DNA of 64,000 nucleotides, from positions 1,025,001 to 1,089,000 of the forward strand of contig NZ_CP027806.1 of the NCBI RefSeq assembly GCF_003353065.1, written 5' to 3'. The first letter of the stretch is position 1; every line of letters begins with the position of its first letter. Both the position numbers and the translations under genes were made by a program. Under the pieces are notes generated by a model. The model ran no database searches. It was not told where the DNA came from and was given only the letters and a program-made list of their open reading frames with translations. This DNA comes from Cyclonatronum proteinivorum (GTDB lineage Bacteria > Bacteroidota > Rhodothermia > Balneolales > Cyclonatronaceae). Below are positions 8,068 through 51,463 of the stretch, piece by piece.

Positions 8068-8715
8068 ATGAAATTGAACATTCTCAAAACGGACGGTACT
8101 GAAACCGGCCGTTCAGTAGAGCTGCCCGAATCGGTGTTCGCAATTGAGCCCCGTGACACGCTTGTTTACGAAGATGTAAGAGCATACCTCGCACATCAGC
8201 GTCAGGGTACAGCTAAAACCAAAGGACGTACAGAAGTGCGTGGCGGTGGTAAGAAAGCGTTCCGTCAGAAAGGTACCGGCGGCGCCCGTCGCGGAACCCT
8301 GCGTTCCCCGCTTCTCAAAGGCGGTGGTACAGTTTTCGGTCCACGTCCGCGTACCTACACCATTCGTCTCACCAAAAAGATGAAGGAACTCGCCCGCAAA
8401 TCAGCGTTCACATACAAAGCTAACGACAATGCCATCATGGTAGTCGAAGACTTCAGCTTTGATACCCCTAAGACATCATCATTGGCAGCAGTGCTGCGTA
8501 ATCTCAAAGCTGAAGGCCGCAAAGTGCTTCTCCTGACCGGTTCAACAGATGTTAATCTGTACAAGTCAGGCCGTAATATTCCGGGCGTAAATGTTTTGGA
8601 AGCTTACAAGCCATCTACCTATGAAATTCTGCATGCAGACTTCGTGCTGTTTACAGAGTCAGGGCTGAACACGCTAACCAATGGCTTTAGCAAGAATGAG
8701 GAGGCAGCGGCATGA
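8068..8715 (+). CDS. rplD: 50S ribosomal protein L4
   Basis: Exit-tunnel protein of the large subunit. 215 aa with the tunnel loop intact (GTGGARRGTLRSPLLKGG, FGPRPRTY). In E. coli, L4 represses the S10 operon; no matching leader is visible here. The stop overlaps the rplW start by four bases (ATGA at 8712), indicating translational coupling. Confidence 0.98.
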   Translation: MKLNILKTDGTETGRSVELPESVFAIEPRDTLVYEDVRAYLAHQRQGTAKTKGRTEVRGGGKKAFRQKGTGGARRGTLRSPLLKGGGTVFGPRPRTYTIRLTKKMKELARKSAFTYKANDNAIMVVEDFSFDTPKTSSLAAVLRNLKAEGRKVLLLTGSTDVNLYKSGRNIPGVNVLEAYKPSTYEILHADFVLFTESGLNTLTNGFSKNEEAAA

Positions 8716-9008
8716 GTAAAGTATTAATTAAACCTCTGCTCACAGAGAAAATCAACCGCATTCAGGAAACGCAGGGAAAGTACTGTTTCCTCGTGGCCAC
8801 TGACGCTACCAAGACAGAGATTAAAGCTGAAATCGAAAGGCTTTATCCCGAAGTACAGGTTGCCAAAGTCAGAACGCTGATTACTGCAACCAAGCCTAAA
8901 GGTCGTTTTACGAAAAGCGGTTATCTCTCCGGAAGAACTCCGAAACAGAAAAAAGCTTTCATTACCCTGAAAGAAGGCCAGGAAATAGACCTCTTCAGTG
9001 AAATTTAA
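8712..9008 (+). CDS. rplW: 50S ribosomal protein L23
   Basis: Tunnel-exit protein that docks trigger factor and SRP. 98 aa with the usual start VLIKPLLTEKINR and a C-terminal basic region (TKPKGRFTKSGYLSGRTPKQ). Overlaps rplD by four bases, so its translation is probably coupled to it. Confidence 0.97.
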   Translation: MSKVLIKPLLTEKINRIQETQGKYCFLVATDATKTEIKAEIERLYPEVQVAKVRTLITATKPKGRFTKSGYLSGRTPKQKKAFITLKEGQEIDLFSEI

Positions 9009-32497: not shown

Positions 32498-33217
32498 ATG
32501 ACAAACGAAGACGAACTTATTGAAAAGGTTGTAGACTTTGTTGAACAAAGTATTTTTCAGCCACACATTAAGGCCTCATTGGAAAAGCATACTAAATTAC
32601 GGTCATATAAAATAAACCCAATAATAGTAAAATATTTGTCTAAAGTTTTGGAGGATGAATACACCCCAATAGGTGTTGCGAAAGCTTTATATTTTCCAAG
32701 GGTATTAGGAACTTCAATAAATACTTCTTTTGGTACTCAAGTGCAAAATATGTTTGTTGAATTAGGGATCGCCCAGGGTTCGATGATTAAGGGGATGGAT
32801 ATTGAGTTTATAGATAGACATGATAATCGAAAAAAATGGTGTCAGCTAAAAGCGGGGCCAAACACTATTAACTCTGAAGACGTAAAACCGATATTGTCAA
32901 AATTTGAAGGTACAATTAGACTTGCTAAAACAAACAACGCGATGCGTGGCATAAGAAACTCAGATTTTATTGTCGGTGTATTATATGGTACATCAAACGA
33001 GCTCAGTCAGCACTATCGTAAAATTAATGATGTTTATCCGGTTTATATTGGTAATGAATTTTGGAGTAGGATAACTGGGTATGAGAATATTTACAGTAAA
33101 CTGGAAGATGAAATGCAAGCAATGATTGAATCTTTAAATACGCACGATTTTATAAACCAAGGTTGTAATACACTAGCTGAGGAAATTAGCCGGTCATCGA
33201 TTTTTGACTTTCGTTAA
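32498..33217 (+). CDS. Type II restriction endonuclease, PmeII-like
   Basis: 239 aa. The core MDIEFID...KKWCQLKAGPNTINSEDV fits a PD-(D/E)XK-type active site with Q-x-K and strongly resembles PmeII-family endonucleases (family recognition from memory). Partner of the convergent cytosine methyltransferase, whose 3' end it overlaps by 32 bases. Visibly more AT-rich than the surrounding genes, consistent with acquisition by transfer. The recognition sequence cannot be read from the gene. Confidence 0.72.
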   Translation: MTNEDELIEKVVDFVEQSIFQPHIKASLEKHTKLRSYKINPIIVKYLSKVLEDEYTPIGVAKALYFPRVLGTSINTSFGTQVQNMFVELGIAQGSMIKGMDIEFIDRHDNRKKWCQLKAGPNTINSEDVKPILSKFEGTIRLAKTNNAMRGIRNSDFIVGVLYGTSNELSQHYRKINDVYPVYIGNEFWSRITGYENIYSKLEDEMQAMIESLNTHDFINQGCNTLAEEISRSSIFDFR

Positions 33218-34460
33218 TAATACTGCTATACCTGTTTAAAAAGTCAATTAACGAATAACCAATCTCTTCTCCAAGGTTTACAGGTACCGCGTTACCGATC
33301 TGTTTGTACTGCTGAGCTATGGAACCCGCAAACTGCCAATCGTCGGGAAACGTCTGAATTCTAGCGTATTCCCGAACTGTAAAGGGTCTGGTTTCGTCTG
33401 GATGGCATCTTTCAGTTTGTTTTTGAGCGGGACTGCAAGTTAATGTGAGGCATGGCTCATCCCATCCAATCCTTCTTGCCATTCCCGTTTTACCTCCATC
33501 AAGGTGGTAACTCCCTCCCATATACTCTTTTTGAATGTCAATTGGCAAGTCTCTCCAATAACCTTTAGGCGGTACCATCTCCATTACCTTCTTTTTGTAT
33601 TTAGGGTATTTTGCACCATCAGATTCGGGAACATCTGAATCAAAAAGTTCGCCTTTCTTTAGCGCATCAGATAGATTATAGATGCGATTATATTTTGCTG
33701 GATAGTTATATTCGACTTCTACATCTTTACGGATTGCTACAAGAAAAACTCGTTCACGTTTTTGTGGAACTCTATAATGTATAGCTTTTAGTATTTGTAC
33801 TGGTACTACATTATACCCTATTTCATCTAAAATAGATATCATACCTTGTATAGTTCTGCCGTTGTCATGGCTTAATAACCCTCTTACATTTTCACCAACA
33901 CACACAATGGGCTGTACTTCGTCAACAACTCTTGCAAATTCATAGAAAAGAGTTCCACGGGCATCCGAAAGACCAAGTTTTTTACCAGCATAGCTAAAAG
34001 CCTGACATGGAAAACCTCCGGTAACGATGTCCGTTTTACCTTTAAAGGACGAGAAATCAAAATCTTTTATATCCCCTTCTAAAATATTCCAATGCGGTCT
34101 GTTCATACGAAGTGTTTCGCATGCCCATTTGTCAATTTCGTTAAGAGCTATACAGTTCAAACCTGATTTTTCTAAGCCAATCGCAAGCCCCCCCGCGCCT
34201 GCGAAAAGCTCAAGAACAGAGTAAGGTTTATTCGATGGAACATAGTTTGTTTCATTGTCCTGTACACTTCGGTCAAATAGATCCCCAACAAATTGATTTA
34301 GCATTTCTTTTTTATAGATACGGTAATTAGAAACGGGTTCACGGCTTGCGATTAATAGACCTTCTCGATCCCAACGTCTAAGGGTTTGTTTACTTTTGCC
34401 TAGGTAATCAGCAGCTTCACTTAGTGTATAAAATTCTTTCATAACCTTGTTGTTAAACAT
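33186..34460 (-). CDS. DNA (cytosine-5) methyltransferase with N-terminal helix-turn-helix
   Basis: Protects host DNA from the neighbouring endonuclease. 424 aa. Residues ~8-60 are a MerR/excisionase-type HTH (YTLSEAADYLGKSKQTLRRW). The C5-MTase motifs follow: I LELFAGAGGLAIG, IV GGFPCQAFS (catalytic Cys), VI ENVRG, VIII PQKRERVFLV and X QIGNAVPVN. The HTH could let the enzyme regulate its own operon, as known for M.SsoII-type enzymes (inference). A start at 34442 is an alternative. AT-rich, like the endonuclease gene. Confidence 0.93.
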   Translation of the reverse strand: MFNNKVMKEFYTLSEAADYLGKSKQTLRRWDREGLLIASREPVSNYRIYKKEMLNQFVGDLFDRSVQDNETNYVPSNKPYSVLELFAGAGGLAIGLEKSGLNCIALNEIDKWACETLRMNRPHWNILEGDIKDFDFSSFKGKTDIVTGGFPCQAFSYAGKKLGLSDARGTLFYEFARVVDEVQPIVCVGENVRGLLSHDNGRTIQGMISILDEIGYNVVPVQILKAIHYRVPQKRERVFLVAIRKDVEVEYNYPAKYNRIYNLSDALKKGELFDSDVPESDGAKYPKYKKKVMEMVPPKGYWRDLPIDIQKEYMGGSYHLDGGKTGMARRIGWDEPCLTLTCSPAQKQTERCHPDETRPFTVREYARIQTFPDDWQFAGSIAQQYKQIGNAVPVNLGEEIGYSLIDFLNRYSSIINESQKSMTG

Positions 34461-34779
34461 TGCTCATTGGTTATTAATATAAACAGGTTCATTATTTGTT
34501 CCTAAATTAATCACTTTAAAAAAATGACTCTTAAATTAAATATTATCAGCACCATACTTCTTTGATAGGTCTGTTGTGATAGAAATAAATTTGTTGAAAC
34601 CGATAGATTGAGTAGGTTAAAATTAAGGAAACAAGGTTCTTCATTTGATAAAAATGAATTTTGTGCGATTAGCTTATAGGTGTGTTTGTTGGCTGTCAAT
34701 TTTCTTGACAACTAAATGATAGCTCGCTATTTATCAGTAAAAAAAATTAGAACAATAAGATTTTAGCTGAATACCATTT
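34461..34779. other. AT-rich divergent promoter region
   Basis: 319 bp between the divergent methyltransferase and McrB-like genes, with no gene recognised. Composition is strongly AT-rich. It must hold promoters for both directions; no clear consensus or operator was identified. Confidence 0.4.
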
Positions 34780-36240
34780 ATGTCTACTGAATTAGAACAC
34801 GAATTTAAAAACTGGTTGGAAAGAAACCACCCCAAACCTTCCAATGCTTCCAGTTCATATCTGAGAGCGCTCGAAATTTTCTCGGCTTATATGGCGGATA
34901 GCGGGCTCGCAGGAAAAAGTTCAATTTTTGAGGTAACTGACGAAAACATGCTCCAAGTCTTGTATGATGAGGCCAGAGCGCAACAAAAAGATCCTGATTC
35001 CAGGTTGCATCAATCTGGCCCAACCAGTTACGGTGAAAAGGGATTTTATTCTGCTGCAATAAACAGGTATATGGCATTCTTACAAAAAGAGAAGACCAAA
35101 GAAAGATTATCAAACCAATCTGACTTAACTAAACATTTTTATAGTAAACTGGTAGTGAGCGGTCTTCTGTTCTCAGACCAAACAATCCTCCGCTTCATCG
35201 CCTCTCTCCTTACCAAACCCTTCGTAATCCTCACAGGCCTTTCGGGTTCCGGAAAAACCAAGCTTGCACAGGCTTTTGCGATGTGGATTTCTGAGAGCGA
35301 AGAGCAGTACTGTTTGGTCCCGGTAGGTGCTGACTGGACGAACCGGGAGCCGCTTTTGGGCTACCCCAACGCGCTAAAGGATCAGGAGTATGTGAAACCG
35401 GAAAACCGGGTTCTGGATTTAATCCTCGGGGCAAATCAAAACAGTCATCTGCCGTATTTCCTAATTCTTGACGAAATGAACCTCAGCCATGTGGAGCGTT
35501 ATTTTGCTGATTTCCTGAGTGCCATGGAGTCCGGAGAAAAAATAGCGCTGCATAGCGGGTCGGAAGCCTGGAACGGAGTGCCGTCTTCGCTTAAACTGCC
35601 GGATAACCTGTTTATCATTGGTACAGTCAACATTGACGAAACGACCAATATGTTCAGTCCCAAAGTGCTCGACCGCGCCAGCACCATTGAGTTCAGGGTC
35701 AGTAAATCCGATATCCACAGTTTCCTCGACGAAATGCAGTCCTTAAATATGAAAGCCCTTGAAGGCAAAGGAGCCGGTACGGGTGCTTCTTTTCTTGAAA
35801 TGGCGCGCACTAAAACGCATGGCGCAATGCCTGATAAAGGTCTTCGTGAAAGCCTGCTGCTCTTTTTCGAAGAGCTCAGTAAGACCGGTGCCGAATTCGG
35901 GTACCGGTCAGCTTCAGAAATTGTCCGGCTGATTCGTAACCTTGAAGCGCTTGACCCTCAAGGAGCGCTTACGGCAGATCAGAGGCTTGATATTGCGGTG
36001 ATGCAGAAACTGCTTCCCAAACTGCACGGCTCAAGACGAAAACTTGTGCCGGTACTGAAAACCCTGGCCGGGCTGTGCCTGAAGGAAGTCCGTGAAGATA
36101 TCGTCAGAGATGTTTTGGGCAATACCGCCTATACCGCAAGCGATCCGGATAACGTGAAGTACCCGCTTTCGCTGGAAAAGATTACCCGCATGTATCAGGG
36201 CGCGATTGATAACGGATACGCAAGCTATGCAGAAGCCTGA
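34780..36240 (+). CDS. McrB-like AAA+ (GTPase-type) restriction subunit
   Basis: Motor subunit of a type IV (modification-dependent) restriction system. 486 aa. Residues 1-130 are a separate N-terminal region, probably DNA-specificity. The motor follows: Walker A LTGLSGSGKTKLA (~150), Walker B FLILDEMNLSHVERYFADFL and the sensor-like TVNIDETTNMFSPKVLDRAS, typical of McrB. The ATG at 36227 of the next gene overlaps its end by 14 bases, indicating a two-gene operon. The first ~380 bases are much more AT-rich than the rest, suggesting a swapped N-terminal domain. Confidence 0.85.
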   Translation: MSTELEHEFKNWLERNHPKPSNASSSYLRALEIFSAYMADSGLAGKSSIFEVTDENMLQVLYDEARAQQKDPDSRLHQSGPTSYGEKGFYSAAINRYMAFLQKEKTKERLSNQSDLTKHFYSKLVVSGLLFSDQTILRFIASLLTKPFVILTGLSGSGKTKLAQAFAMWISESEEQYCLVPVGADWTNREPLLGYPNALKDQEYVKPENRVLDLILGANQNSHLPYFLILDEMNLSHVERYFADFLSAMESGEKIALHSGSEAWNGVPSSLKLPDNLFIIGTVNIDETTNMFSPKVLDRASTIEFRVSKSDIHSFLDEMQSLNMKALEGKGAGTGASFLEMARTKTHGAMPDKGLRESLLLFFEELSKTGAEFGYRSASEIVRLIRNLEALDPQGALTADQRLDIAVMQKLLPKLHGSRRKLVPVLKTLAGLCLKEVREDIVRDVLGNTAYTASDPDNVKYPLSLEKITRMYQGAIDNGYASYAEA

Positions 36241-38599
36241 TCCTGTTTCTCGTCCCGTTTCTGATGGGGTTCTGAAAATCCCGCTGGATACGGTTGAAAA
36301 GGGACTCAAGCTCATTATTGAAGAGCGCAGGAAAGGTACGCTGTTTGAACTTGATGCCGTGGCTGAAGGATTTCATGAAGCGCGGCATCAGCTCCTTGAG
36401 GGGCAGTCGTATGATTTTGAATTCAGCAGCAACGATTTTTGCTTCGGTGAGCCGAAAGTACGTGCCGGTCGTATAGTGCAGGCCCGAAAGAGCAGACCGC
36501 ACATGGGTACCCTTGAGCCGAATATTTTTGTAGGTACGCTGCAGCTGGATGTTTGCCGCAAGTCTCAGCCGGAGGTCAGCTGCGGTGCCGTTCAGCTGGA
36601 AGTGCAGTCCGTTAAAACCGGCTACCGTGACGATTACCGGAATATGCTCGAATATATCACGGACCGCTGCACGGCCCTGCTTATGCAGTCGGATTCGCCC
36701 GTGCGTCAGATGGTTGAAGTCGATTATGAAGCAGACTATGAAAGCCTGTATCAGCGCTTTGCGTTTGTACGGTCTGTGATCGGGTCAGATGATTTTGCGG
36801 CTGCGGTACACCGGGTTGTTACCGCACCTGTCACAGGCTGGCGTGAAATCAGTGAGAAGCAGGATGTGCGCAGAATTCGCCGGTTTTCGGCTTCCGGTAT
36901 TCGGGAAATTACGCAGGGCCGCAACCGTCAGCAGCTTTCCGCCTTGCACCCCCTCGCACAACAGGGCATTCCGAGCATGCCTGCCCGCGTACACAGCAGC
37001 ATAAAAACAGACTCCGTCGATACGCCTGAGAACCGTTTCATAAAATATGCACTCGAAAGTTTTGCTTTTTTCTGTGCAGGTATTCATGAAAGCGTATCTG
37101 TGCAGCCGGGCTCAGCCCTGCATACGGAATCGGCTGATTTGGTGAACAGGCTGGAATCATGGCTGCAGCACAGCATGTTCCGCGAGGTCTCGCGTCCGGC
37201 AACGCTTCGCATCAACAGCCCGGTGCTGCAGCGGAAAACGGGATACAGGGCAGTGCTCCGAGCATGGCTAATGTTTGACCTTGCGGCCAAACTGGTCTGG
37301 CGCGGCGGTGATGATGTGTATCAGGCCGGAAAAAAAGACATCGCGACCCTGTATGAATACTGGCTGTTTTTCCAGCTGACCGATCTCTTTAGCGGGATGT
37401 TCCGCCTCGAACAGCAGGCACTGGAAAAGCTGATAGTGCCGGACACTTCGCAGCTGAATCTCACCCTGAAGCAGGGCAAAGAAACCATCCTTCACGGTGT
37501 ATTCAGGACGGAAAGCCGTGCACTGCAGGTTCGGTTCAGCTATAACCGCACGTACAGCGGCACATCGTTCGAAAAAAGCTATCCTGGTCCGGGCAGCTGG
37601 ACCACCGCAATGCGGCCTGATTACAGCCTGACGGTATGGCCTGCCGGAATTAGTGAGGCGATTGCTGAACAGGAAGAGCTGATTGTTCACATACACTTCG
37701 ACGCCAAGTATAAGGTAGAAAACCTTGCCGACTATCTTCGGGAAAGGGCTGAAGCTGCTCCGGAAATGATAGATTCTGAAAAGCAGCGTGAGCGGGAGGG
37801 GCGTTATAAAAATGCGGATCTGCTTAAAATGCACGCCTACAAGGATGCCATCCGGCGCACGGGCGGCGCGTATGTGCTTTATCCCGGCGACATTCCCGTG
37901 AGGCGGCAGGGCTTTCACGAAATCATCCCCGGACTTGGTGCTTTCCCCGTGAAGCCTTCACGGGATGAAACCGGCATACAGGAACTTCGGCAGTTTATTG
38001 AAGAGGTCATCCGGCACTTCATCAACCGTTCGAGTCAGCGGGAAAAAGCGGCACTAAAACTGTGGCAGGTGCACCGAGAAGAACCAAAGGTCAATCACTC
38101 GGTTGCCCGCTCTGTCCCCGAAGCTTACGGCGTGAACCGGGATCATATTCCCGACGAAACGCAGGTGCTGGTGGGTTACTGCAACAGGCAGGAACAGTTT
38201 GACTGGATTCGGGCGAAGAAACGCTATAATTTCAGAACAGACGGCAGTCAGGGTTCTCTTGTGCTTGACAGCAAAACGGTAACTGCAAAATACTTGCTGA
38301 TCCACAGAGCGGGGAAGGATGAAACGGCTGAACTATGGGAGATCATTTCGGATGGTCCGGAAGTTTTTTCAAAAGAAAAGCTGCTCCAAATGGACTATCC
38401 CGGTCCGTCGCAGCCCTATTATCTGGTAATCAAAATCAAAAAGGCTTCAGCCGGGGAATTCAGGGGTTTGGTATGGGAGCATGGTAAACTTGCCGGTTAT
38501 AAAGAAGGCTTAAGGAAAGGGCTGCCTTTCACGGTCACACTTTCAGAGCTGATGGCCGTATCCCGTAAAGTACCGGTACTGACCGGGGAGCCCGATTAA
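36227..38599 (+). CDS. DUF2357/DUF524 McrC-like nuclease subunit
   Basis: Likely nuclease partner of the McrB-like protein. 790 aa from the ATG at 36227 (a TTG at 36206 is possible). The N-terminal half matches DUF2357-type McrC homologues; the C-terminal half holds a PD-(D/E)XK active site: RPDYSLTV near residue 465 and HFDAKYKV ~25 residues later, then KMHAYKDAIRR and GAFPVKPS. Overlaps the upstream gene by 14 bases and the convergent vsr by 4. A fragment of a related gene survives at 39173-39355. Confidence 0.82.
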   Translation: MQKPDPVSRPVSDGVLKIPLDTVEKGLKLIIEERRKGTLFELDAVAEGFHEARHQLLEGQSYDFEFSSNDFCFGEPKVRAGRIVQARKSRPHMGTLEPNIFVGTLQLDVCRKSQPEVSCGAVQLEVQSVKTGYRDDYRNMLEYITDRCTALLMQSDSPVRQMVEVDYEADYESLYQRFAFVRSVIGSDDFAAAVHRVVTAPVTGWREISEKQDVRRIRRFSASGIREITQGRNRQQLSALHPLAQQGIPSMPARVHSSIKTDSVDTPENRFIKYALESFAFFCAGIHESVSVQPGSALHTESADLVNRLESWLQHSMFREVSRPATLRINSPVLQRKTGYRAVLRAWLMFDLAAKLVWRGGDDVYQAGKKDIATLYEYWLFFQLTDLFSGMFRLEQQALEKLIVPDTSQLNLTLKQGKETILHGVFRTESRALQVRFSYNRTYSGTSFEKSYPGPGSWTTAMRPDYSLTVWPAGISEAIAEQEELIVHIHFDAKYKVENLADYLRERAEAAPEMIDSEKQREREGRYKNADLLKMHAYKDAIRRTGGAYVLYPGDIPVRRQGFHEIIPGLGAFPVKPSRDETGIQELRQFIEEVIRHFINRSSQREKAALKLWQVHREEPKVNHSVARSVPEAYGVNRDHIPDETQVLVGYCNRQEQFDWIRAKKRYNFRTDGSQGSLVLDSKTVTAKYLLIHRAGKDETAELWEIISDGPEVFSKEKLLQMDYPGPSQPYYLVIKIKKASAGEFRGLVWEHGKLAGYKEGLRKGLPFTVTLSELMAVSRKVPVLTGEPD

Positions 38600-39024
38600 G
38601 CAGGGTTATTGTCGGTAATTTCCGCAAATACCCGGTTCAGGGCTAGTTCCCCCTCATCCCCCCTCAGCTCACATTCCCAAACGACAATCACTTTCCAGCC
38701 TGAAGCCCGGAGTTTAGCGTATGCGGCGGCGTCACGCTCACGGGTGCGGCTGATTTTGTTTTCCCACCATTCGGTGCGCGTTTTGGGCATCACAAATTTG
38801 GGGCAGCCCTGATGACCGTGCCAAAAGCAACCGTTAACAAATACAGCGGTCCGGTATTTACGGAAAGATAAATCCGGCTTACCGGGCAGTTTTTTACTGT
38901 GCAGCCGGTACCGGAGTCCGCGCCGGTGCAGTCCCGAACGCAGCCGCATCTCCGGCTTCGTATCCTTCGACCGGATGCGGCTCATGTTAAAACTACGGGT
39001 TTCGGGAGTGTGGACGTCGGCCAT
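38596..39024 (-). CDS. vsr: Very short patch repair endonuclease Vsr
   Basis: Nicks DNA at T:G mismatches that arise when 5-methylcytosine deaminates. 142 aa from the ATG at 39024: RSFNMSRIRSKDTKPEMRLR, LPGKPDLSFRKYRTAVFVNG (catalytic Asp), CFWHGHQGC (His and zinc-site residues) and VVWECEL. The open frame extends upstream to 39261, but that part is antisense to an echA fragment and is not coding. Presence beside a C5 methyltransferase fits its role. Overlaps the DUF2357 gene by 4 bases. Confidence 0.92.
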   Translation of the reverse strand: MADVHTPETRSFNMSRIRSKDTKPEMRLRSGLHRRGLRYRLHSKKLPGKPDLSFRKYRTAVFVNGCFWHGHQGCPKFVMPKTRTEWWENKISRTRERDAAAYAKLRASGWKVIVVWECELRGDEGELALNRVFAEITDNNPA

Positions 39025-39061
39025 GAAAAGTGAAAGTTTGAAATGATGGAAGCCTCCCCCC

Positions 39062-39172
39062 CTAATCCATCCACCCCGGTTTGCGCTTTTCCAGAAATGC
39101 CTGGAAGCCTTCGAAGCCCCAGGGCCCGTCGAAGATCCGGCGCTGATAGCCGGCTTCGCGGGTGAGGGCGTC
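39062..39172 (-). pseudogene. Orphan 3' end of the enoyl-CoA hydratase gene (left direct repeat)
   Basis: 111 bp identical at 107 positions to 47922-48032, the last 36 codons and stop of the intact enoyl-CoA hydratase gene, in the same orientation. A C run precedes both copies. The match ends abruptly at 39172, where the DUF2357 remnant begins. It looks like the displaced gene end left by an insertion. Confidence 0.9.
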
Positions 39173-39355
39173 CCGGATCTGCTGAAAATGCACTTCTGCA
39201 AGGATGCCATCCGGCGCACATATAGTAAGAATGTGCTTGATTCCGGGGACTTCGCCGCCAAGCGGCAGCACTGTCATGAAAGCAATCCCAAACTTGTCGC
39301 TTTTCCGGTGAAGCCCTCTCGCAAAGGGAAAATTTCGGCCGGCGAACAAGCTTAG
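39173..39355 (+). pseudogene. C-terminal remnant of a second DUF2357/DUF524 nuclease gene
   Basis: 60 codons beginning right at the repeat junction and ending in TAG at 39353. They align without gaps to codons of the intact nuclease gene around 37825-37970: DLLKMHFCKDAIRR versus DLLKMHAYKDAIRR, and AFPVKPSR in both. The rest of the gene is missing. The first ~45 bases are almost identical and the remainder diverged, so it is a fragment of a homologue rather than a fresh copy. Confidence 0.8.
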
Positions 39356-40688: not shown

Positions 40689-41633
40689 TTACTCAGGTCT
40701 TTCCGAGCCACCCTGTACAAGGCCGGTTGCAATGCTATCAAGGGTTTGCGGAAGGGCAAGTTTTGCGAGCCAGGAGCCCGGAATGGCGCTCTTGCCGTAG
40801 AAAGCGCCGGCAAGCTGACCGCATACAGCCGCGGTTGTGTCGGCATCATCGCCCAGATTGGCTGCCATCAGCACGGCATCTTTGAAGGAATCCGTGGTAA
40901 ACAGACACCAAAGGGCAGCTTCGAGGGAATCGACGACATACCCGCTGCCTTTAATTTCTGCCCTGCTTTTCTGCGTGAATCCTCCCTGCTGCAAGTCGGT
41001 GAGTCGTCCTGTTGATCTGAGGCTGATTTTGCCGAGCGTAACGAGCATCTTTTCCCTGCTGCTGCCGGAAGCAAGGTGCCACAAGGCGGATGCCATCAGT
41101 TCACAGCCATCGAGGCACTCGGGTGCGCCGTGTGTCGTGCGGGAGCTTTCGGCAGCGTATCTGCGACAGACTTCCTCCCCCTGCCCGTGGAAGTACATCA
41201 CAACCGGTGCAAGCCGCATGATGCTGCCGTTTCCGGCACTGTACGGATCGGTTGAACCAGCATAAGGCTCGTTAAGCGCCTCAAATTTCTGCAGGCTCCG
41301 GAGGGTGGTGATGCCGATATCGAAACAGCGCCCGGTACTGCTGAGGTGACCTTCACTATGCCAGCGCAGATAGCGCCTCATTTGGTCAGCCGGGTCAAAG
41401 CCCTTACATGCAATCAGGCTTTCCCCCAGGCATAGCGCCATCGAGGTATCGTCGGTCCATGCACCGGGCGGAAGCCCGAAAGGGCCGCCCCCAACAATAT
41501 CGGTTAGCGGGGGATTGCTGTCCCGCGCGGTAAATTCAAGGGTTGTTCCCAGCGCATCTCCGGCAGCAAGGCCAAAGAGCATTCCGGTGAGTTTGTCGTG
41601 AAATGGTGTGGTGTTTTGAGAGCGGGTATTCAT
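40689..41633 (-). CDS. ADP-ribosylglycohydrolase (DraG/ARH family)
   Basis: Predicted to remove ADP-ribose from proteins or nucleic acids, or to cleave related ADP-ribose compounds. 314 aa from the ATG at 41633; upstream residues of the open frame overlap the neighbouring gene and are not used. All dinuclear metal-site motifs are present: FGLAAGDALG (~20), GAWTDDTSMAL (T/D/D at 59-62), GNGSIMRLAP and GDDADTTAAVCGQLAGA (261-). So it should be active. It lies between two paralogous AAA+ genes with gaps of 73 and 55 bases. Confidence 0.92.
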   Translation of the reverse strand: MNTRSQNTTPFHDKLTGMLFGLAAGDALGTTLEFTARDSNPPLTDIVGGGPFGLPPGAWTDDTSMALCLGESLIACKGFDPADQMRRYLRWHSEGHLSSTGRCFDIGITTLRSLQKFEALNEPYAGSTDPYSAGNGSIMRLAPVVMYFHGQGEEVCRRYAAESSRTTHGAPECLDGCELMASALWHLASGSSREKMLVTLGKISLRSTGRLTDLQQGGFTQKSRAEIKGSGYVVDSLEAALWCLFTTDSFKDAVLMAANLGDDADTTAAVCGQLAGAFYGKSAIPGSWLAKLALPQTLDSIATGLVQGGSERPE

Positions 41634-41706
41634 GATGGTTTTCTGGTTTTGATGCAGGTTAGTGTTGAAACTTGTGGTGCCGGAGAGATGCGTTTGGTAC
41701 TGGGGT

Positions 41707-42906
41707 TCAGCCGAAGCCGAGTTCACGCTTTTCTGCAAAGTTGTTTTTCACGAGCTTGATGCGGTGTTCGAGGTACCCGTAGGCTTCATGCGGCTGTATT
41801 CCTTTCATCCGGGAGAGCAGGAAGAGCTCTTTGAGGTAGGCGGGGGTCATTTTAGCCGAATACCACGCGTGATGCTTTTCGCTTTCCGGCAATTCCTGAC
41901 CGGTTACGTGTTTATACCAGGCTTCCTGAAAGCCCGGGAGGTTTTCGCGGCCAGCTTCTTCGAGTACATCGATGCGGCTTGGCCGGTCGGTAAGGTTCTT
42001 GGGCACCCGATCGGGGTTGTTGGTTGTCATCAGGTAAATGACGTTGTTTCGAAGAATGGCATTGTCGAGGAAATTGAGCAGGCTACTGTTGCCACGATAG
42101 GAGCTCATTTCTGCCAGCTCCTCAATAATGAAGATTTTCAGGCGGTCGGCCAGATGCGTTTCAAGGAGAACCAGTCCTTTATCGACAACCAGTTCCAACT
42201 GAAAACGGGAGTCAATGCGAATTACAACTGCTTTATGCATCTGAATAAGCTGCTTGCAGAGGTTATCTATGAATCTGGACTTTCCTGTGCCCGGTTCTCC
42301 GAACAGCAGTACGGACCTGCGGTAGCCGAGCCTGTTCTCGACAAATATGCGGCGGTTTTGGAGAAATTCGCTGATGGCTTCAGATACCCGTTTCAGGCCG
42401 GGATTGTATTTTTCGAGCGGGAAATACCCCTCGCTGAGGTAATCACCCCTTTCAAGCCGGTTCAGACTGCTCAGCGCAGTTGCGGTCACCGAATGTTTGT
42501 CGCTCATTCTGCTATGAACCGGGTTAGCAGGCGTACGACTACTTTGCTGCGTTATGCGCTCCATCTCTTCCATAAAAGCAAGATCCTCGAGCTCAATTTG
42601 CTCGATAAATGAGTCGAACTCTGCATTTCCCGCTGCCTGAGCGTCCTGTTCGGCCTCATCCCTAATGCGGTTGTTCCGGTGCATTTCAAGCAAGGCCTGC
42701 CGCCTGAACGGATCTATGCGTGTGAGGACAAAGTTGCCTTCATCGGACCGGTCGGGCAGGTAAAGGCCTGCCGGAAACTCACTGTAAGCCAGCTCTTTGG
42801 GGAAGGCAATATGTGAGCCGTAGTCGATATAGTAGCGTGCAATGTGCTGCGGCATGCGGTCAATTGTATTGGGCACAGAAGGATTGGAAATAGTATTTGC
42901 TGACAT
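41707..42906 (-). CDS. AAA+ ATPase B (island operon)
   Basis: 399 aa from the ATG at 42906 (the frame is open to 42987). The first ~170 residues are unrecognised; PAGLYLPDR there parallels PPGFYEP in the sister protein. AAA+ core: Walker A FGEPGTGKSRF near residue 210, Walker B KIFIIEELAEM again with Glu-Glu, sensor TTNNPDR and LTDRPSRIDVL. C-terminus TPAYLKELFLLSRMKG matches LAYLQEVFLKSYMED of the sister. First gene of the compact operon with the ADP-ribosylglycohydrolase and AAA+ A. Confidence 0.85.
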   Translation of the reverse strand: MSANTISNPSVPNTIDRMPQHIARYYIDYGSHIAFPKELAYSEFPAGLYLPDRSDEGNFVLTRIDPFRRQALLEMHRNNRIRDEAEQDAQAAGNAEFDSFIEQIELEDLAFMEEMERITQQSSRTPANPVHSRMSDKHSVTATALSSLNRLERGDYLSEGYFPLEKYNPGLKRVSEAISEFLQNRRIFVENRLGYRRSVLLFGEPGTGKSRFIDNLCKQLIQMHKAVVIRIDSRFQLELVVDKGLVLLETHLADRLKIFIIEELAEMSSYRGNSSLLNFLDNAILRNNVIYLMTTNNPDRVPKNLTDRPSRIDVLEEAGRENLPGFQEAWYKHVTGQELPESEKHHAWYSAKMTPAYLKELFLLSRMKGIQPHEAYGYLEHRIKLVKNNFAEKRELGFG

Positions 42907-43355
42907 AGTTCTCCGGATTAAGAATGAAAGGGTGAGGTGAAATGCAGGTCTGAAAAGCTCTGCTCGTTGTCCGGATAAGTTCAGCACCTTATTTTACTCT
43001 GTTGGTAATTGTCTTGCGCTACTATGCTTGTTTGCAGAAGTGGCGTAAGATTAAACTGAAGATGTCTTAGGCCTGCTTATCCATTTCGCTCACAGAAGGT
43101 AGAACCAGAAGATTCCTGAAACGGTAATTATTTGGCAGTCGTCTAAAGCCCTTTTGTATGCAGCATCTTATACCCCTCAAAATTAAAGCGGGGGACTTAG
43201 GGCTTCGCGTACTCCACCCGCTGCTACTGCCCCCCCCCGATTTTCATACCCCGCGTACGGGAAAAAGTAATTTCGCGCAGGAATAGAATAAGCTGGCGGT
43301 TGGCCGATGTTTATCCGGCCAGCGACAGCATCAATCCTTTAAAACAAGCCGTCCG
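42907..43355. other. Gap upstream of the AAA+ operon
   Basis: 449 bp between two leftward genes. It should hold the promoter of the AAA+ operon. A hairpin TGGCCG/CGGCCA near 43300-43320 lacks a T tract. A nine-C run lies at about 43229-43237. Short frames here have no support. Confidence 0.35.
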
Positions 43356-44672
43356 TTATTTTCCTCTAATCCATGAGCGCAGCAATGCGGATGTCTTCTC
43401 ATCTTTCGGATATTCTGCAACTGTGGGATCAGCGCCACATGCAGTTGCTGCTTTTTGAATATGATCAGAAACCTGCTGACCACTAACAACCCCCCGCCTT
43501 ACGAGCCATGTTCCGATAGTAGTGGTGAGTTTTTCAGTGCTGCCTGTCTCTGTGAGCAGTAATGGCCCTGAACCTTCTTTGTGCTTTCGGTCAATCTCAT
43601 CAAGAAGGGCTTGCAAGCCAGGTTCATCTAATGGAGTTTGTTCCGTATTAATTTCCTGGACCCTCGGCGGAGCCATAGCGGGACTCTCTTTTTCAGCTGA
43701 GCAGTCGCGGGCGGCGAAAAGTCCTGGTACAAGCCAGAAAGCCCCCCGTACTGGTACTGGTATTCCTCCGAATTCATCTTTATGTAAATAAATTGCAGCC
43801 CCAAGCCCTGCTGTATAGCTGCGGTCCTGCCGGCCAAGATAAGATAACCTAACCGGCAGCGGCAGGAAATCAGGAAAGTGCCGTGGCGGCAGGTCTGCAA
43901 CCACAAAACGTGCCTTCTTTAAAAGCTTTGGCCGGAGAAACTCCTGCCCATTGGGCATTCCAATTAAGAAAAAGCCGGAAATCGTTGAATTTATAATATG
44001 TGTCTGCCGCGGTGAACCGGCTTCAAACCATGCTGCAAGATCATTAAAATCACAATTAACATAAATCGCCTTCGCGTAGCCTGCCATGCCCTGCTGTTCA
44101 ACCTTTAGCACCATTTTCACAACATCCGTTTCTTTCCCTGCAAGAAGCTGCTGTTTCTCCCTGAGCACCTCCATCACGATCACACGGTCAAATCCGGACT
44201 CAATCCAGCCTTGCTTGTAAGCGGGCTCGCTGCAATAAATCCCGGTATTTTTATCATAGAGCACATAACCCGGCTTCAGTTTATAAAAAAAAGCAGCTAC
44301 CTGTTCACTATTGTCACACATCAGCAATTCTGACCTCGTCCAGTAAGTATAGAGGCTTTGGAGGAGCGCAGGCGCTTCTTTGGCCAAAGTGAGTTCAGAT
44401 AATAAGGGGGAAAAATCAGTTCCGCTTCCCGGATAAACAATATAGTTGTCTGTGGTTGGTAGTTGCAGCATGGAGCTTTGAAGGTGTGCGGTATGTGTGT
44501 CCAAATTTTGTTGAATTTTAAATATACGTGTTTTATGCGTGCCATAGCGACAGTTATCAGGGGAGGGGCGAGCTCCGGTCGTATTGGGTTCACCATTGAC
44601 CGCATCGGTGCTTTGGCTGAGTAGCGGTGTTGTGGGTTTTAGGATTTTCAGACGGTCTTTTTCTTTTTCCAT
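43356..44672 (-). CDS. Orphan 439-aa protein upstream of the AAA+ operon
   Basis: No family recognised. The ATG at 44672 (MEKEKDRLKILKPTTPLL) gives 438 residues; the frame is open to 44756 with a hydrophobic stretch there that is less likely coding. Visible parts: a low-complexity N-terminus; a central domain opening with NYIVYPGSGTDFSPLL, which looks like a nucleotide- or SAM-type glycine loop (inference); a Pro/Glu-rich linker; and a C-terminal helical domain (LDEIDRKHKEG, TWLVRRGVVSGQQV). Divergent from the next gene across a region with two palindromes. Confidence 0.6.
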   Translation of the reverse strand: MEKEKDRLKILKPTTPLLSQSTDAVNGEPNTTGARPSPDNCRYGTHKTRIFKIQQNLDTHTAHLQSSMLQLPTTDNYIVYPGSGTDFSPLLSELTLAKEAPALLQSLYTYWTRSELLMCDNSEQVAAFFYKLKPGYVLYDKNTGIYCSEPAYKQGWIESGFDRVIVMEVLREKQQLLAGKETDVVKMVLKVEQQGMAGYAKAIYVNCDFNDLAAWFEAGSPRQTHIINSTISGFFLIGMPNGQEFLRPKLLKKARFVVADLPPRHFPDFLPLPVRLSYLGRQDRSYTAGLGAAIYLHKDEFGGIPVPVRGAFWLVPGLFAARDCSAEKESPAMAPPRVQEINTEQTPLDEPGLQALLDEIDRKHKEGSGPLLLTETGSTEKLTTTIGTWLVRRGVVSGQQVSDHIQKAATACGADPTVAEYPKDEKTSALLRSWIRGK

Positions 44673-44847
44673 ATTTCCGGTAGTAAGATTTATTAAAACG
44701 AACAGTATCAACAAAGCCCTGCAGGGCGTACCTGCGGGCACTGCAGCTTGTTGCATGAGCTGAGCTAATCTACATCAGTGAAAATCCGCTTTGCGACAAG
44801 ATGGGGCAGACCAGAAAAAAGTGCGCTTTTCACGATATAAACGCATG

Positions 44848-44864
44848 TTTACTAATTTGGTAAA
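44848..44864. promoter_or_regulatory. Operator-like palindrome 1
   Basis: TTTACTAATTTGGTAAA is a 17-bp palindrome with one mismatched pair. Its half site GGTAAA recurs inverted (TTTACC) in the second site 74 bases away. A WYL-type regulator is encoded 1 kb away and is a natural candidate to bind it (inference). Confidence 0.4.
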
Positions 44865-44921
44865 TAAATAAAATGCCTTTTTGGGTATTTGGAAGGGTCT
44901 TTGGTTGGAATTGATTTTATA

Positions 44922-44940
44922 TTTACCAAAATAGTTTGTA
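44922..44940. promoter_or_regulatory. Operator-like palindrome 2 overlapping the rightward promoter
   Basis: TTTACCAAAATAGTTTGTA contains an imperfect dyad (TAC...GTA, AAA...TTT) and shares TTTACCAAA with the inverse of site 1. It ends inside the candidate -7 element at 44939-44946, the usual place for a repressor site. Confidence 0.35.
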
Positions 44941-45102
44941 TATTTGTTTGGTTTGAATGAGCAGCTGAAAGAAACAGTTTTATTTTGCTGTTTTGCTCAC
45001 GTGATGGCATCCCGCCGAGATTTTTCGGTGTTTTCTGATTTGGTAATTATACCCGCCCGCCTTCCTTTTTTATTCAAAAGTTCCAAACCTCAGGCAAGTA
45101 TT

Positions 45103-45726
45103 ATGACTATTGATACATACTTCAAAACTACTTTCAACGCTGATTTTCAAAAGCTGACCTTCCGTCGTGTTGCTTTGCGCAGCCGAAACAACTCCGGTGC
45201 ACTCCAGCCTGGTCTTATCTTCGGAGGCCGTCATTGGCGCAACATGCGTCAGGACCTGAGCGCAGTACCCAAAGAAAACCGGGAGTTGTTTCTCTGGTGT
45301 CTGTTCCTGCTCAGTCTGACCGACCAAACCATCTTTGCCCATTTCGGGCACATCTACCCGCAATGGTCGCGTGTTACCAACCTGCCCAAGTTTGCCTGTT
45401 TCGGATGTTGTAACCGTATACAAAACCCGTTTCACATCCTTGAGAGACCCGTACATGATCCCGCCGGCGGCAGACTGCTCCGGCTGCCGATTGCACGTTC
45501 CCGCATACCCGAAGCCGTGAGCACCTACCTCCGTATGCTTGAAAGCTCCTCTCCTGCCCACCTTGAAAACCTTGCAATAAACGACTTCGCAAACGCAACG
45601 ATAGCCGATCCGGATTTTCATTTCGGGCATGGCATGCTTGCAAGAGCCTTTCGTGAGGAATTCGCCGTACAGCTGGGGTTTGCAAGTCGCTGCGAACCCG
45701 CTGCGGCCCCGGAAGCTGCTGCCTGA
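45103..45726 (+). CDS. Orphan 207-aa protein
   Basis: No family recognised. Starts MTIDTYFKTTFNADFQKLTF; an Arg-rich strand region, then an aromatic hydrophobic stretch (LFLWCLFLLSL) and a cysteine cluster FACFGCC near residue 100, ending in an Ala-rich tail (EPAAAPEAAA). No signal peptide. Start choice is uncertain (45004 is possible). A terminator follows, so it is probably a single-gene transcript. Confidence 0.55.
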   Translation: MTIDTYFKTTFNADFQKLTFRRVALRSRNNSGALQPGLIFGGRHWRNMRQDLSAVPKENRELFLWCLFLLSLTDQTIFAHFGHIYPQWSRVTNLPKFACFGCCNRIQNPFHILERPVHDPAGGRLLRLPIARSRIPEAVSTYLRMLESSSPAHLENLAINDFANATIADPDFHFGHGMLARAFREEFAVQLGFASRCEPAAAPEAAA

Positions 45727-45821: not shown

Positions 45822-46838
45822 ATGGATCTTCACGCGCTACGTTTTTATATCATTGAAAGAATTCTGAAAGATGAGCCTAAGAATGGTTTTACACACGAGC
45901 AGCTCCACAATGAAATGGAAACTATTTTTGACGAAGTTTCTGATAAATCCGTGCGCACCATTCTGAATGGTCTGGAGGAATCAGGTATTCTGCGCACACA
46001 CAAAGAGGGTAAGGTTAAACACTATTTTTTGGATCGCAGTAGCATGATGTCGATTGATCCCGAGCATGCTTGCGAAATCTACAACAACGAGTATATCGTT
46101 ATAGCCTCCGTTTTTAGCGCAATGCTAAACGAACTCTACGCCACAGATCTCAACCATGCAGCCAATGCCTTCCAAAAACAGCTTGGCTATGTCATCAATA
46201 TCCCGGATGCACGTATCAAAATTGACAGCATCAGCCAGAATATAATGTTTGATGTGCTTGGACTTCGAAAACTCACAAGGGGGCACACCTCTGCTTTGGT
46301 GCAGCTGCTTCAGAAAACAGGACACAAAACTGAAATCGAGCTTTCTGATGGCAGTACGCGCAGCTTTGTGCCCTATGTACTTGTACTGCGTAATACCGTA
46401 CCTGTTCTGTGCGGTTACGATGCGGAAAGCCACACCTACAGTGAGCTTTTTCCGGATGAAATTGTTCGGGTCAAAAAAATCGGACGGCTTTATGAGGCTA
46501 CACTGCCTGATGCAAGCGAAAGGGCCAGGCTCGATATCGCCCATCTTGCGGTCGGGCGCCCATCCGCCAGTCAGACTGAAGATATTGTCCTCGAGCTCGA
46601 TGATGAAGCTATTGCCCGCCTTCAGGCCAAACCAATGACAATTGATTTTGAACTTGTACCGAAGGAAAATAAACTCTTCATCTGTCACGCCATCACTACG
46701 GATTTGGCAGATTGGATCATTGGTCTGGGTAGTGGGGTAAAGGTCATAGAGCCCTTTGAAATGCGTGAACGGGTAAAACAACGCCTTCTTGAACTGCTTA
46801 CAGCGTACGAAAGCAGCGATATTCAGGTGGCCTCCTGA
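45822..46838 (+). CDS. WYL-domain transcriptional regulator
   Basis: 338 aa. Residues 1-80 are a winged helix (IIERILKDEPKNGFTHEQLH, VRTILNGLEESGILR). The middle is a WYL ligand-sensing domain (SDGSTRSFVPYVLVLRNTVP, VLCGYD; the name-giving W-Y-L reads P-V-L here) and the C-terminus a WCX-type extension (IIGLGSGVKVIEPFEMRERV). Such proteins sense nucleotides or nucleic acids and control defence loci (BrxR/CapW type). First gene of an operon with the next two, and the likely regulator of the island. Confidence 0.85.
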   Translation: MDLHALRFYIIERILKDEPKNGFTHEQLHNEMETIFDEVSDKSVRTILNGLEESGILRTHKEGKVKHYFLDRSSMMSIDPEHACEIYNNEYIVIASVFSAMLNELYATDLNHAANAFQKQLGYVINIPDARIKIDSISQNIMFDVLGLRKLTRGHTSALVQLLQKTGHKTEIELSDGSTRSFVPYVLVLRNTVPVLCGYDAESHTYSELFPDEIVRVKKIGRLYEATLPDASERARLDIAHLAVGRPSASQTEDIVLELDDEAIARLQAKPMTIDFELVPKENKLFICHAITTDLADWIIGLGSGVKVIEPFEMRERVKQRLLELLTAYESSDIQVAS

Positions 46839-46889: not shown

Positions 46890-47423
46890 ATGAGCGCCCT
46901 CCGATTCCAGCTTACCATTGATACCGATACCGTCCTCATATCCCAATCCCCAGCCGGAAAGAAAAGCCGGGTGAGCCTTACAAACCTTGACCAAAGCAGT
47001 GTGGAACAGCTTGTAAGGGGTATCGAAGATGCCGGCCTCACTGAAACCATACTCGCTCAGCTGGCAACAAACAGCAACAGCAATGCAGTAAATGCATCAT
47101 CTGAAACAGAGACAAGGCTTCTGAATTATACCGTTTATCTGGGGCTCAGCGGTGAAGATTCGAAAAGCACCCCCGAACAATCAGAAAAAACGACCGAAAA
47201 GATTTCATCAATCCTGAATGACATTCCGGAAATAGACGGGTTCACTATCTCCCGCGCAACCGGCAACTATCGCGGTGACACAGAAGACGTATGGCTCATT
47301 CATCTTGCCGTTGAACACCCTGATATCTCCCGTAAATGTGCCCGCGCAATAAAGAAATCTTTTGGTCAGCGTGCCGTAGGGCTGACGCTTAACGGCCTTT
47401 ATGCCCGCCTCCAAGATTTGTAA
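46890..47423 (+). CDS. Orphan 177-aa protein downstream of the WYL regulator
   Basis: No sure family. Residues 1-55 form a charged strand-rich part; a Ser/Asn/Thr-rich linker (TNSNSNAVNASSETE) follows; then a compact domain LLNYTVYLGLSGED...FTISRATGNYRGDTEDVWLIHL...IKKSFGQRAVGLTLNG, whose order of strands resembles DUF3574-type proteins (weak). Fifty-one bases after the regulator, same strand. Confidence 0.6.
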   Translation: MSALRFQLTIDTDTVLISQSPAGKKSRVSLTNLDQSSVEQLVRGIEDAGLTETILAQLATNSNSNAVNASSETETRLLNYTVYLGLSGEDSKSTPEQSEKTTEKISSILNDIPEIDGFTISRATGNYRGDTEDVWLIHLAVEHPDISRKCARAIKKSFGQRAVGLTLNGLYARLQDL

Positions 47424-47754: not shown

Positions 47755-47921
47755 GCTGTGCCTGCATCCGTGCGTAATCATTGTAATTCCTGACCAAAAA
47801 ACCTTGCCGACTGATAGCGCAGTAATTAAGGGGACATAGAAAATTCAACTGAACAAACGGACGTAAATGTCAAAGCACGGGCAGCGTTACTCACGGATGC
47901 AGGATTAAAATTGCCCCCCCT

Positions 47922-48032
47922 CTAATCCATCCACCCAGGCTTGCGTTTTTCCAGAAATGCCTGGAAGCCTTCGAAGCCCCAGGGGCCGTCGAAGATCCGG
48001 CGCTGATAGCCGGCTTCGCGGGTGAGGGCGTC
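47922..48032 (-). repeat. Right direct repeat (3' end of the intact enoyl-CoA hydratase gene)
   Basis: Partner of the 39062-39172 copy, 8,860 bp apart, with four mismatches. The pair brackets a nine-gene island. Probable attachment-site duplication (inference). Confidence 0.8.
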
Positions 48033-51076: not shown

Positions 51077-51463
51077 TTACACGGAGAGTCCCGCACGCGC
51101 TCGTTGCTTAGACTTCTGCGGTCGGGCCTTTTGCCGTGATGGGGTTTCCGTTTCCAGCATGACCGGGTGCGGACTGTGGATGGGATGCTGTTCATCGGTG
51201 ATTACAAAATCGGTTTTACCTAAAACATTACGGTACAGATACAGAATGGCCGACTCGCACTGATTGAGCTTATAGCGTTTCAGGCCATGGTAATGACGCA
51301 GGGCGTGCAGATAGAGCCGGATTTCAGCGTCGCTCAGGCTTAGCGGATGGCGCTTGTAGTGGAAATGAATGAGGTCTGAAATCCAGCCTTTGTACTGCCG
51401 GATGGTACGCTCGGAGTAGTGCTCGGACTCCATCAGAAGTCTCAGGTGGGTAAGCAATTTCAT
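51077..51463 (-). pseudogene. N-terminal fragment of an integron-type tyrosine integrase
   Basis: 128 aa matching only the SAM-like core-binding domain of tyrosine recombinases (HYSERTIRQYKGWISDLIHF, KRHPLSLSDAEIRLYLHALR, LNQCESAILYLYRNVLG), closest in style to IntI. The catalytic domain with Arg-His-Arg-Tyr is absent; the frame instead ends in a Lys/Arg/Gln-rich tail unlike an integrase. Either a decayed integrase or an N-terminal domain captured as a small DNA-binding protein. Confidence 0.75.

Follow-up and report, generated by a model that had tools for sequence, protein, structure and literature searches.

Among the closest described counterparts of the locus reported here are the BrxR/CapW-type WYL loci. 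According to PMC9122601, BrxR binds inverted DNA repeats, and phage defence systems co-localise with 48% of the BrxR homologues. In the 64,000-nucleotide stretch of Cyclonatronum proteinivorum DNA that was analysed (the window), a WYL/WCX regulator likewise stands beside an operon, with restriction genes near and an inverted repeat upstream. No PADLOC match to BREX or CBASS was obtained among the 10 window proteins scanned, and a literature search found no paper joining ADP-ribosylglycohydrolase, AAA ATPase, WYL and defense.

Individual genes of the locus resemble other known proteins. The profile of its AAA+ ATPase matches the classical AAA ATPase CDC48 best (6chs, E 1.3e-18), followed by BCS1 (6sh3) and YjoB (7w42), but unlike CDC48/p97, BCS1 and YjoB it possesses an N-terminal domain of its own with a PxGxYxP motif. 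This motif and the EE pair of Walker B are invariant in the 8 aligned sequences of the family. The DSP-PTPase phosphatases (PTP-SAK PF22784, Tc-R-P PF22785, DSPc) are relevant to an orphan protein of the locus, whose last 90 residues can be aligned with a family matching these models; in contrast to the phosphatases, the two known orphans have Thr or Asp in place of the catalytic Cys and a shortened central part. The likeness to Tri1/DraG ADP-ribosylglycohydrolases belongs to a neighbouring gene and not to the orphan itself. Thiopurine methyltransferase and other class-I methyltransferases provide the best structural alignment for the better of two models of the orphan, but with no profile support and without repetition by the second model.

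Our favoured reading, held tentatively and with slightly less than even confidence, is that the orphan is a non-catalytic two-domain sensor or adaptor of the AAA+ ATPase in an inducible, WYL-controlled stress or anti-phage module. If true, a little-studied phylum would gain a WYL-controlled AAA+ module not listed so far, half of the orphan would be explained as a pseudophosphatase, and a DNA site would be available for a direct test of induction. The orphan would also be a case in which a signalling phosphatase, placed next to a motor ATPase, had become a non-catalytic sensor.

The orphan gene and its distribution

The orphan gene (P0001) occupies 43356..44672 on the minus strand and is read from 44672 to 43356. 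The plus strand of this interval contains many stops, and the minus strand gives a frame of 438 codons (438 aa). A preliminary description had claimed an open frame of 438 residues, and codon scores together with a homologue of 34% identity confirm it on the minus strand. Frame 0 scored higher than the other five frames in each of four segments (residues 1-67, 68-253, 254-340 and 341-438). The scores, -0.04 to 0.04, fall short of the 0.12-0.21 reached by other genes of the module nearby in their main parts, and the codon usage of P0001 is accordingly atypical; its retention at 34% identity in a second genome indicates that it is more than a chance ORF. An ATG further upstream, at 44756, would lengthen the protein to 466 aa, and the codon scores of this 28-codon extension are not coding-like. 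Since the homologue has a short N-terminus, beginning 11 residues ahead of the equivalent loop tyrosine (homologue Y12), M68 (44471) of P0001 may still be the true start.

Three parts are distinguished in P0001: an N-terminal extension (residues 1-67), a YPGSGTD domain (about 70-305) and a degenerate DSP-like C-terminus (aligned from about 346 to 438, with a start motif FWLVPGL at 312, identified by eye). The segment YPGSGTDFSPLL (residues 80-91) had been called glycine-loop-like, which is a fair description, with a caveat that it is not a P-loop. The helical C-terminus that had been proposed is identified by hhalign as the degenerate DSP-like domain.

P0001 has no match at E<=1 in Pfam, NCBIfam or PADLOC, in line with the preliminary description of a multidomain protein for which no family came to mind. 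Nor did any housekeeping family unrelated to the island match it with confidence. The best matches elsewhere were one PHROGs family (E 0.38) and two PDB sequences (E 0.3). The PDB matches to NleB (E 0.3) and to a solute-binding protein (E 1.2) were taken as chance.

The gene is single-copy in the host genome and rare outside it. Matches were found in 2 of 97 relatives and, with the orphan profile, in 2 of 244 genomes of the class, the host being counted in both cases. The sole relative found (contig C199 of G001, a second genome of the genus) is 34% identical to P0001. Weak matches in the phylum and class searches (G166, E 0.0055; G391, E 0.0047) were set aside as chance. The orphan had no match in 50,697 phage records, 72,556 plasmid records and two viral-contig scans. 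A scan of 84,980 species with two peptide patterns returned 1 orphan locus, on a contig titled Balneolales bacterium isolate PBR18_bin03A, which judging by its length and ORFs is that of the relative already named. The orphan family as treated here has two known members.

A degenerate phosphatase domain at the C-terminus

Three weak matches from the phylum search (G306, G483 and G533, all of one genus; E 5.9e-4 to 0.0038) are DSP-type phosphatase genes. One of these phosphatases matches Pfam PTP-SAK (E 2.4e-15) and Tc-R-P (E 1.1e-14), and BLASTP aligned the orphan's relative with it at 36.6 bits (E 1e-7). A profile of the two orphans was then compared by hhalign with six DSPs, two belonging to that genus and four carried by plasmids of cyanobacteria and Sphaerotilus. 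The alignment extends over 90 columns to the C-terminal end (95%, E 3.6e-8, score 59.4); the reversed control scored 13.9, and none of 200 column shuffles reached the observed score (maximum 22.3). The first DSPs had been picked as weak matches among 394 genomes, a selection which the four plasmid DSPs remove partly, and these four alone gave 91% (E 9.8e-7, score 49.2, 0 of 100 shuffles).

The active site of the phosphatases was not retained. Their loop VHCWGGxGRTG aligns with LWDEGGQEDRL in the relative, so that the catalytic Cys became Asp. Through the pair alignment of the orphans, T374 of P0001 is found at the position of the catalytic Cys and K381 at that of the arginine, and the HCx5R catalytic loop is kept in neither orphan. 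The motif with which the DSP domain starts, YWVxPxxLLAGEYP, has a counterpart by eye in FWLVPGLFAA at residue 312 of P0001. No Pfam phosphatase model matches P0001 or its relative at E<=1. Given the DSP ancestry and the lost catalytic cysteine, the C-terminal ~90 residues of P0001 are, on sequence grounds, a degenerate DSP domain and a predicted pseudophosphatase. A sensor role, one of those suggested in the preliminary description, would fit such a domain.

The N-terminal YPGSGTD domain

Two alternatives concern the N-terminal domain, and the first was raised by structure prediction. AlphaFold model 1, built from a 2-row alignment, has a mean pLDDT of 55 and a pTM of 0.53; the first 230 residues are mostly at 50-87 pLDDT and the C-terminal part is under 50. 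For this model Foldseek found nothing in PDB or BFVD at E<=0.001; sugar methyltransferases and tyrosine phosphatases are mixed among its best rows. VIA-align, which was run on Foldseek's chains (999 aligned), placed SAM methyltransferases in 47 of the best 50 rows, judged by title or known name (6nd4_c, 3k6r and 7wzf have titles that leave this unsaid); such a list does not speak against families outside it. The best row was 2bzg (Z 7.5, rmsd 4.4, 148 residues aligned), with the tool's warning that a Z under 8 may reflect a common arrangement alone.

The VIA-align list favours a divergent class-I methyltransferase, binding SAM and either active or not. Several observations argue against it: Foldseek also ranks tyrosine phosphatases high, and model 2, in which the relative was placed first (pLDDT 40), has no methyltransferase among its best 50 VIA rows (best Z 4.0). 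P0001 matches no methyltransferase profile in Pfam, NCBIfam or PADLOC, and its hhalign comparison with 21 TPMT sequences gave 0.2%, level with the reversed control. This set was chosen with a PxxGK motif filter and represents 21 of 24 loci, three being omitted as their full frame was not cut cleanly. The methyltransferase-type fold that the preliminary description had listed for checking is therefore a weak lead from model 1, opposed by model 2 and the TPMT profile, and we consider a methyltransferase rather unlikely.

In the second alternative, the N-terminal domain is distantly related to DUF7663 (PF24699). The orphan would in that case be a fusion of a DUF7663-type and a DSP-type protein, which elsewhere are separate neighbours. 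Genome G533 encodes a DUF7663 protein (E 2.1e-63) with the loop YPSSASD, near its DSP and a glycohydrolase, and a hand alignment shows a common YPxxxxD and an FxxxNYNxLEQ-like stretch. Against this, global alignment with the one full DUF7663 sequence gave z values of 1.6 and 0.8 (reached by 22/300 and 63/300 shuffles), and hhalign gave 0.25%, which 56 of 200 shuffles reached. Searches of plasmids, phages and viral contigs yielded no further DUF7663 sequences. The DUF7663 relationship is possible, if on the doubtful side.

A module shared by two genomes

In the second genome the gene order is AAA+, orphan, a divergent WYL/WCX regulator, a DUF5685 protein and a small protein. The order in the window is AAA+, glycohydrolase, AAA+, orphan, a plus-strand ORF, WYL/WCX regulator and small protein. 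It had been claimed that the orphan lies upstream of the AAA+ operon and on the same strand, and this is correct for the whole row of AAA+, ADP-ribosylglycohydrolase and AAA+. The link to an AAA+ gene is seen in both genomes.

The classical AAA+ ATPase next to the orphan (P0002; 41707..42987, minus strand, likely ATG start at 42906) is 51% identical over residues 169-425 to the related gene that adjoins the orphan in the second genome. The second AAA+ ATPase of the window (P0004; 39641..40633, minus strand) is a paralogue of P0002 with 34-39% identity. On the plus strand, the regulator (45822..46838) has WYL and WCX domains (PF25583, E 5.9e-7; PADLOC WYL, E 9.8e-13) and is 29% identical to the regulator beside the orphan's relative. 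It is followed by the small two-domain protein (46890..47423, plus strand, 177 aa), which is 34% identical to its second-genome counterpart and whose C-terminal half matches phrog_16022 (unknown function). Between orphan and regulator, an ORF of 207 aa from its ATG (45103..45726, plus strand, open from 44944) has no family match and is absent from the second-genome cluster as fetched. The orphan, AAA+ ATPase, WYL regulator and small protein were kept together though they are only 29-51% identical, which indicates a joint function. With these shared, diverged neighbours and a palindrome found in both upstream gaps, the orphan very probably belongs to a WYL-controlled module.

Elsewhere in the order, the two domains of the small protein also occur each in a small gene of its own (L039 8005-8739; L042 819-1115). 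In L039 one of these genes directly follows an McrBC gene with a 4-nt overlap, and in L042 one stands beside a partial ADP-ribosylglycohydrolase. The L039 gene at 8326-8739 encodes a ferredoxin-like domain with a weak, sub-threshold likeness to the S-adenosylmethionine lyase family (E 0.0039), and a sister member of this domain resembles DUF3574. An identification of the small protein as a SAM lyase was rejected: one of three members reaches PF23780, at E 0.0016 and under the cut-off, and DUF3574 and a 2'-5' RNA-ligase-type structure score like the SAM lyase model.

The upstream palindrome

Exactly one palindrome with 5-bp arms, TTTAC-N7-GTAAA, is present both in the gap that precedes the orphan (44673-45102) and in the second-genome counterpart of this gap. 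In the window this putative operator is TTTACTAATTTGGTAAA at 44848..44864. Some identical 5-bp-arm palindrome with the same spacer was common to 23 of 2000 shuffled gap pairs. The window has two less perfect sites: one with 2 arm mismatches at 45031..45047, just upstream of the divergent ORF 45103-45726, and an operator-like site with 1 arm mismatch at 42993..43009, which precedes the likely start codon (ATG) of the AAA+ gene. In the second genome, another copy with one mismatch lies 34 bp from the palindrome, and one more is found in the small-protein gap.

The relative's 6.2-kb contig is enriched for the site: 3 places in it match with no more than one arm mismatch, a number reached by 0 of 200 shuffles. 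The whole window has 3 arm matches where 1.85 are expected, and since 31 of 100 shuffles do as well the motif is not enriched there. When near-sites in the gaps alone were counted, the window count was reached by 97 of 1000 shuffles (not enriched) and that of the relative by 31 of 1000. A refined pattern has a single exact site in 4,294,247 bases, at 44848-44864, with a caveat that the pattern was drawn from the counted sites; with up to one mismatch it has 9 genome matches, as against 12 for the reversed control.

The glycohydrolase and a possible ADP-ribose link

The ADP-ribosylglycohydrolase gene of the window is found at 40689..41738 on the minus strand (likely ATG start 41633). The nearest solved structure of its product by sequence is 6dre (E 1.3e-75), which we take to be Tri1, a protein that gives immunity to its partner, an ADP-ribosyltransferase toxin. 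The NCBIfam Tri1 model scores it at 323.7 bits, the cut-off being 490. Such a hydrolase in the same row would suit an orphan that is an ADP-ribosyltransferase or a similar toxin, with its mark removed by the neighbouring enzyme. We judge this very improbable: the orphan matches no transferase family, its C-terminus is derived from a phosphatase, and no glycohydrolase was found in the second genome. PF03747 has 0 matches at E<=1e-5 in that genome (98% complete), in which the orphan's contig ends 381 bp past the AAA+ gene. The glycohydrolase therefore lies outside the shared core and was ruled out as a core partner, and the earlier proposal that the orphan is the transferase partner of the hydrolase is not supported. 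Around four related glycohydrolase genes (L105-L108) no AAA+ gene of this family was seen by eye.

A looser tie of the orphan to ADP-ribose is possible, because intact phosphatases related to its C-terminus adjoin an ADP-ribosylglycohydrolase in 2 of the 3 genomes of the genus described above. The DUF7663 protein is near in both; in the third (G306) neither the glycohydrolase nor the DUF7663 protein is near the DSP.

In the two genomes with the glycohydrolase, which represent a different genus of the host's phylum, the glycohydrolase, the intact DSP, a 180-aa protein and the DUF7663 protein occur together (L143 3778-7079; L025 392-3123), the DUF7663 protein being partial in the shorter of the two contigs. 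Restriction genes follow this group in L143. A Sphaerotilus plasmid (L146 1-10073) has an annotated row of WYL, ATP-binding protein, Sir2, DUF4804, DSP, MoxR and VWA, which looks like a related NAD/ADP-ribose conflict cassette. Around the three cyanobacterial plasmid DSPs, the annotation shows ordinary plasmid genes and no NAD enzymes.

Relatives of the module AAA+ gene are more widespread than the orphan. They are present in 7 of 97 relatives, and the 5 besides the two orphan-bearing genomes have no orphan match. The partner gene of the AAA+ gene encodes a macro-domain protein in L021 (6548-8462), related ~100-aa proteins with 33% identity in L017 (3745-5441) and L020 (6717-8334), and in L022 (2326-3263) a protein with no family match that looks SLOG-like by eye. 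These proteins, with the pseudophosphatase and glycohydrolase of the window, could be the exchangeable phosphate- or nucleotide-ligand binders of a new family of AAA+ defence modules, each with a dedicated ATPase. The dead DSP would then act as a decoy or sensor for an ADP-ribose-type or other phosphorylated signal, and its intact cousins beside glycohydrolases or Sir2 would process that signal. We regard this broader proposal as speculative and improbable.

Proposed mechanism and genomic setting

In the favoured reading of the orphan as a sensor or adaptor, the WYL/WCX regulator would hold the module off from TTTAC-N7-GTAAA upstream of the orphan until a signal is sensed. The pseudophosphatase domain would bind a phosphorylated ligand (a phosphoprotein, a nucleotide or an ADP-ribose derivative) without hydrolysing it, and the YPGSGTD domain, perhaps Rossmann-like, would be a second binding site. 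Ligand binding would then switch the classical AAA+ ATPase, the part that performs the mechanical work, when the cell responds to stress or phage. In the host genome, the ADP-ribosylglycohydrolase and the second AAA+ ATPase would be accessories.

A defence role is suggested by the restriction genes at 32.5-39.2 kb, the WYL regulator and the patchy occurrence of the module. The module is bracketed by a 117-bp direct repeat (96%) at 39056-39172 and 47916-48032, which occurs nowhere else in the host genome and whose right copy forms the 3' end of a gene for enoyl-CoA hydratase (PF00378, E 3.7e-55). A lineage-specific stress regulon with no anti-phage role would agree with the lack of matches to any member in the phage, plasmid and viral-contig collections and with its presence in two of the 244 genomes of the class, the host included. 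However, the patchy occurrence, the regulator, the nearby restriction genes and the repeat on both sides give the impression of a mobile defence island, and we hold a stress regulon of this kind to be unlikely.

An apparent third copy of the repeat at the 3' end of the orphan (27 nt) was taken as chance, since the homologue conserves similar C-terminal residues. No integrase was seen among the ORFs between the repeat copies. The restriction island (32498-39261) contains an EcoO109I-type endonuclease, a C5 methylase with a MerR-like N-terminus, a PDC-M26A-type ATPase, a DUF2357/PD-(D/E)XK protein and Vsr. About 3 kb to the right of the repeat, a 128-aa ORF (51077-51463) encodes the N-terminal SAM-like domain of a phage integrase (PF13495, E 4.3e-17) with no room for a catalytic domain and appears to be an integrase remnant.
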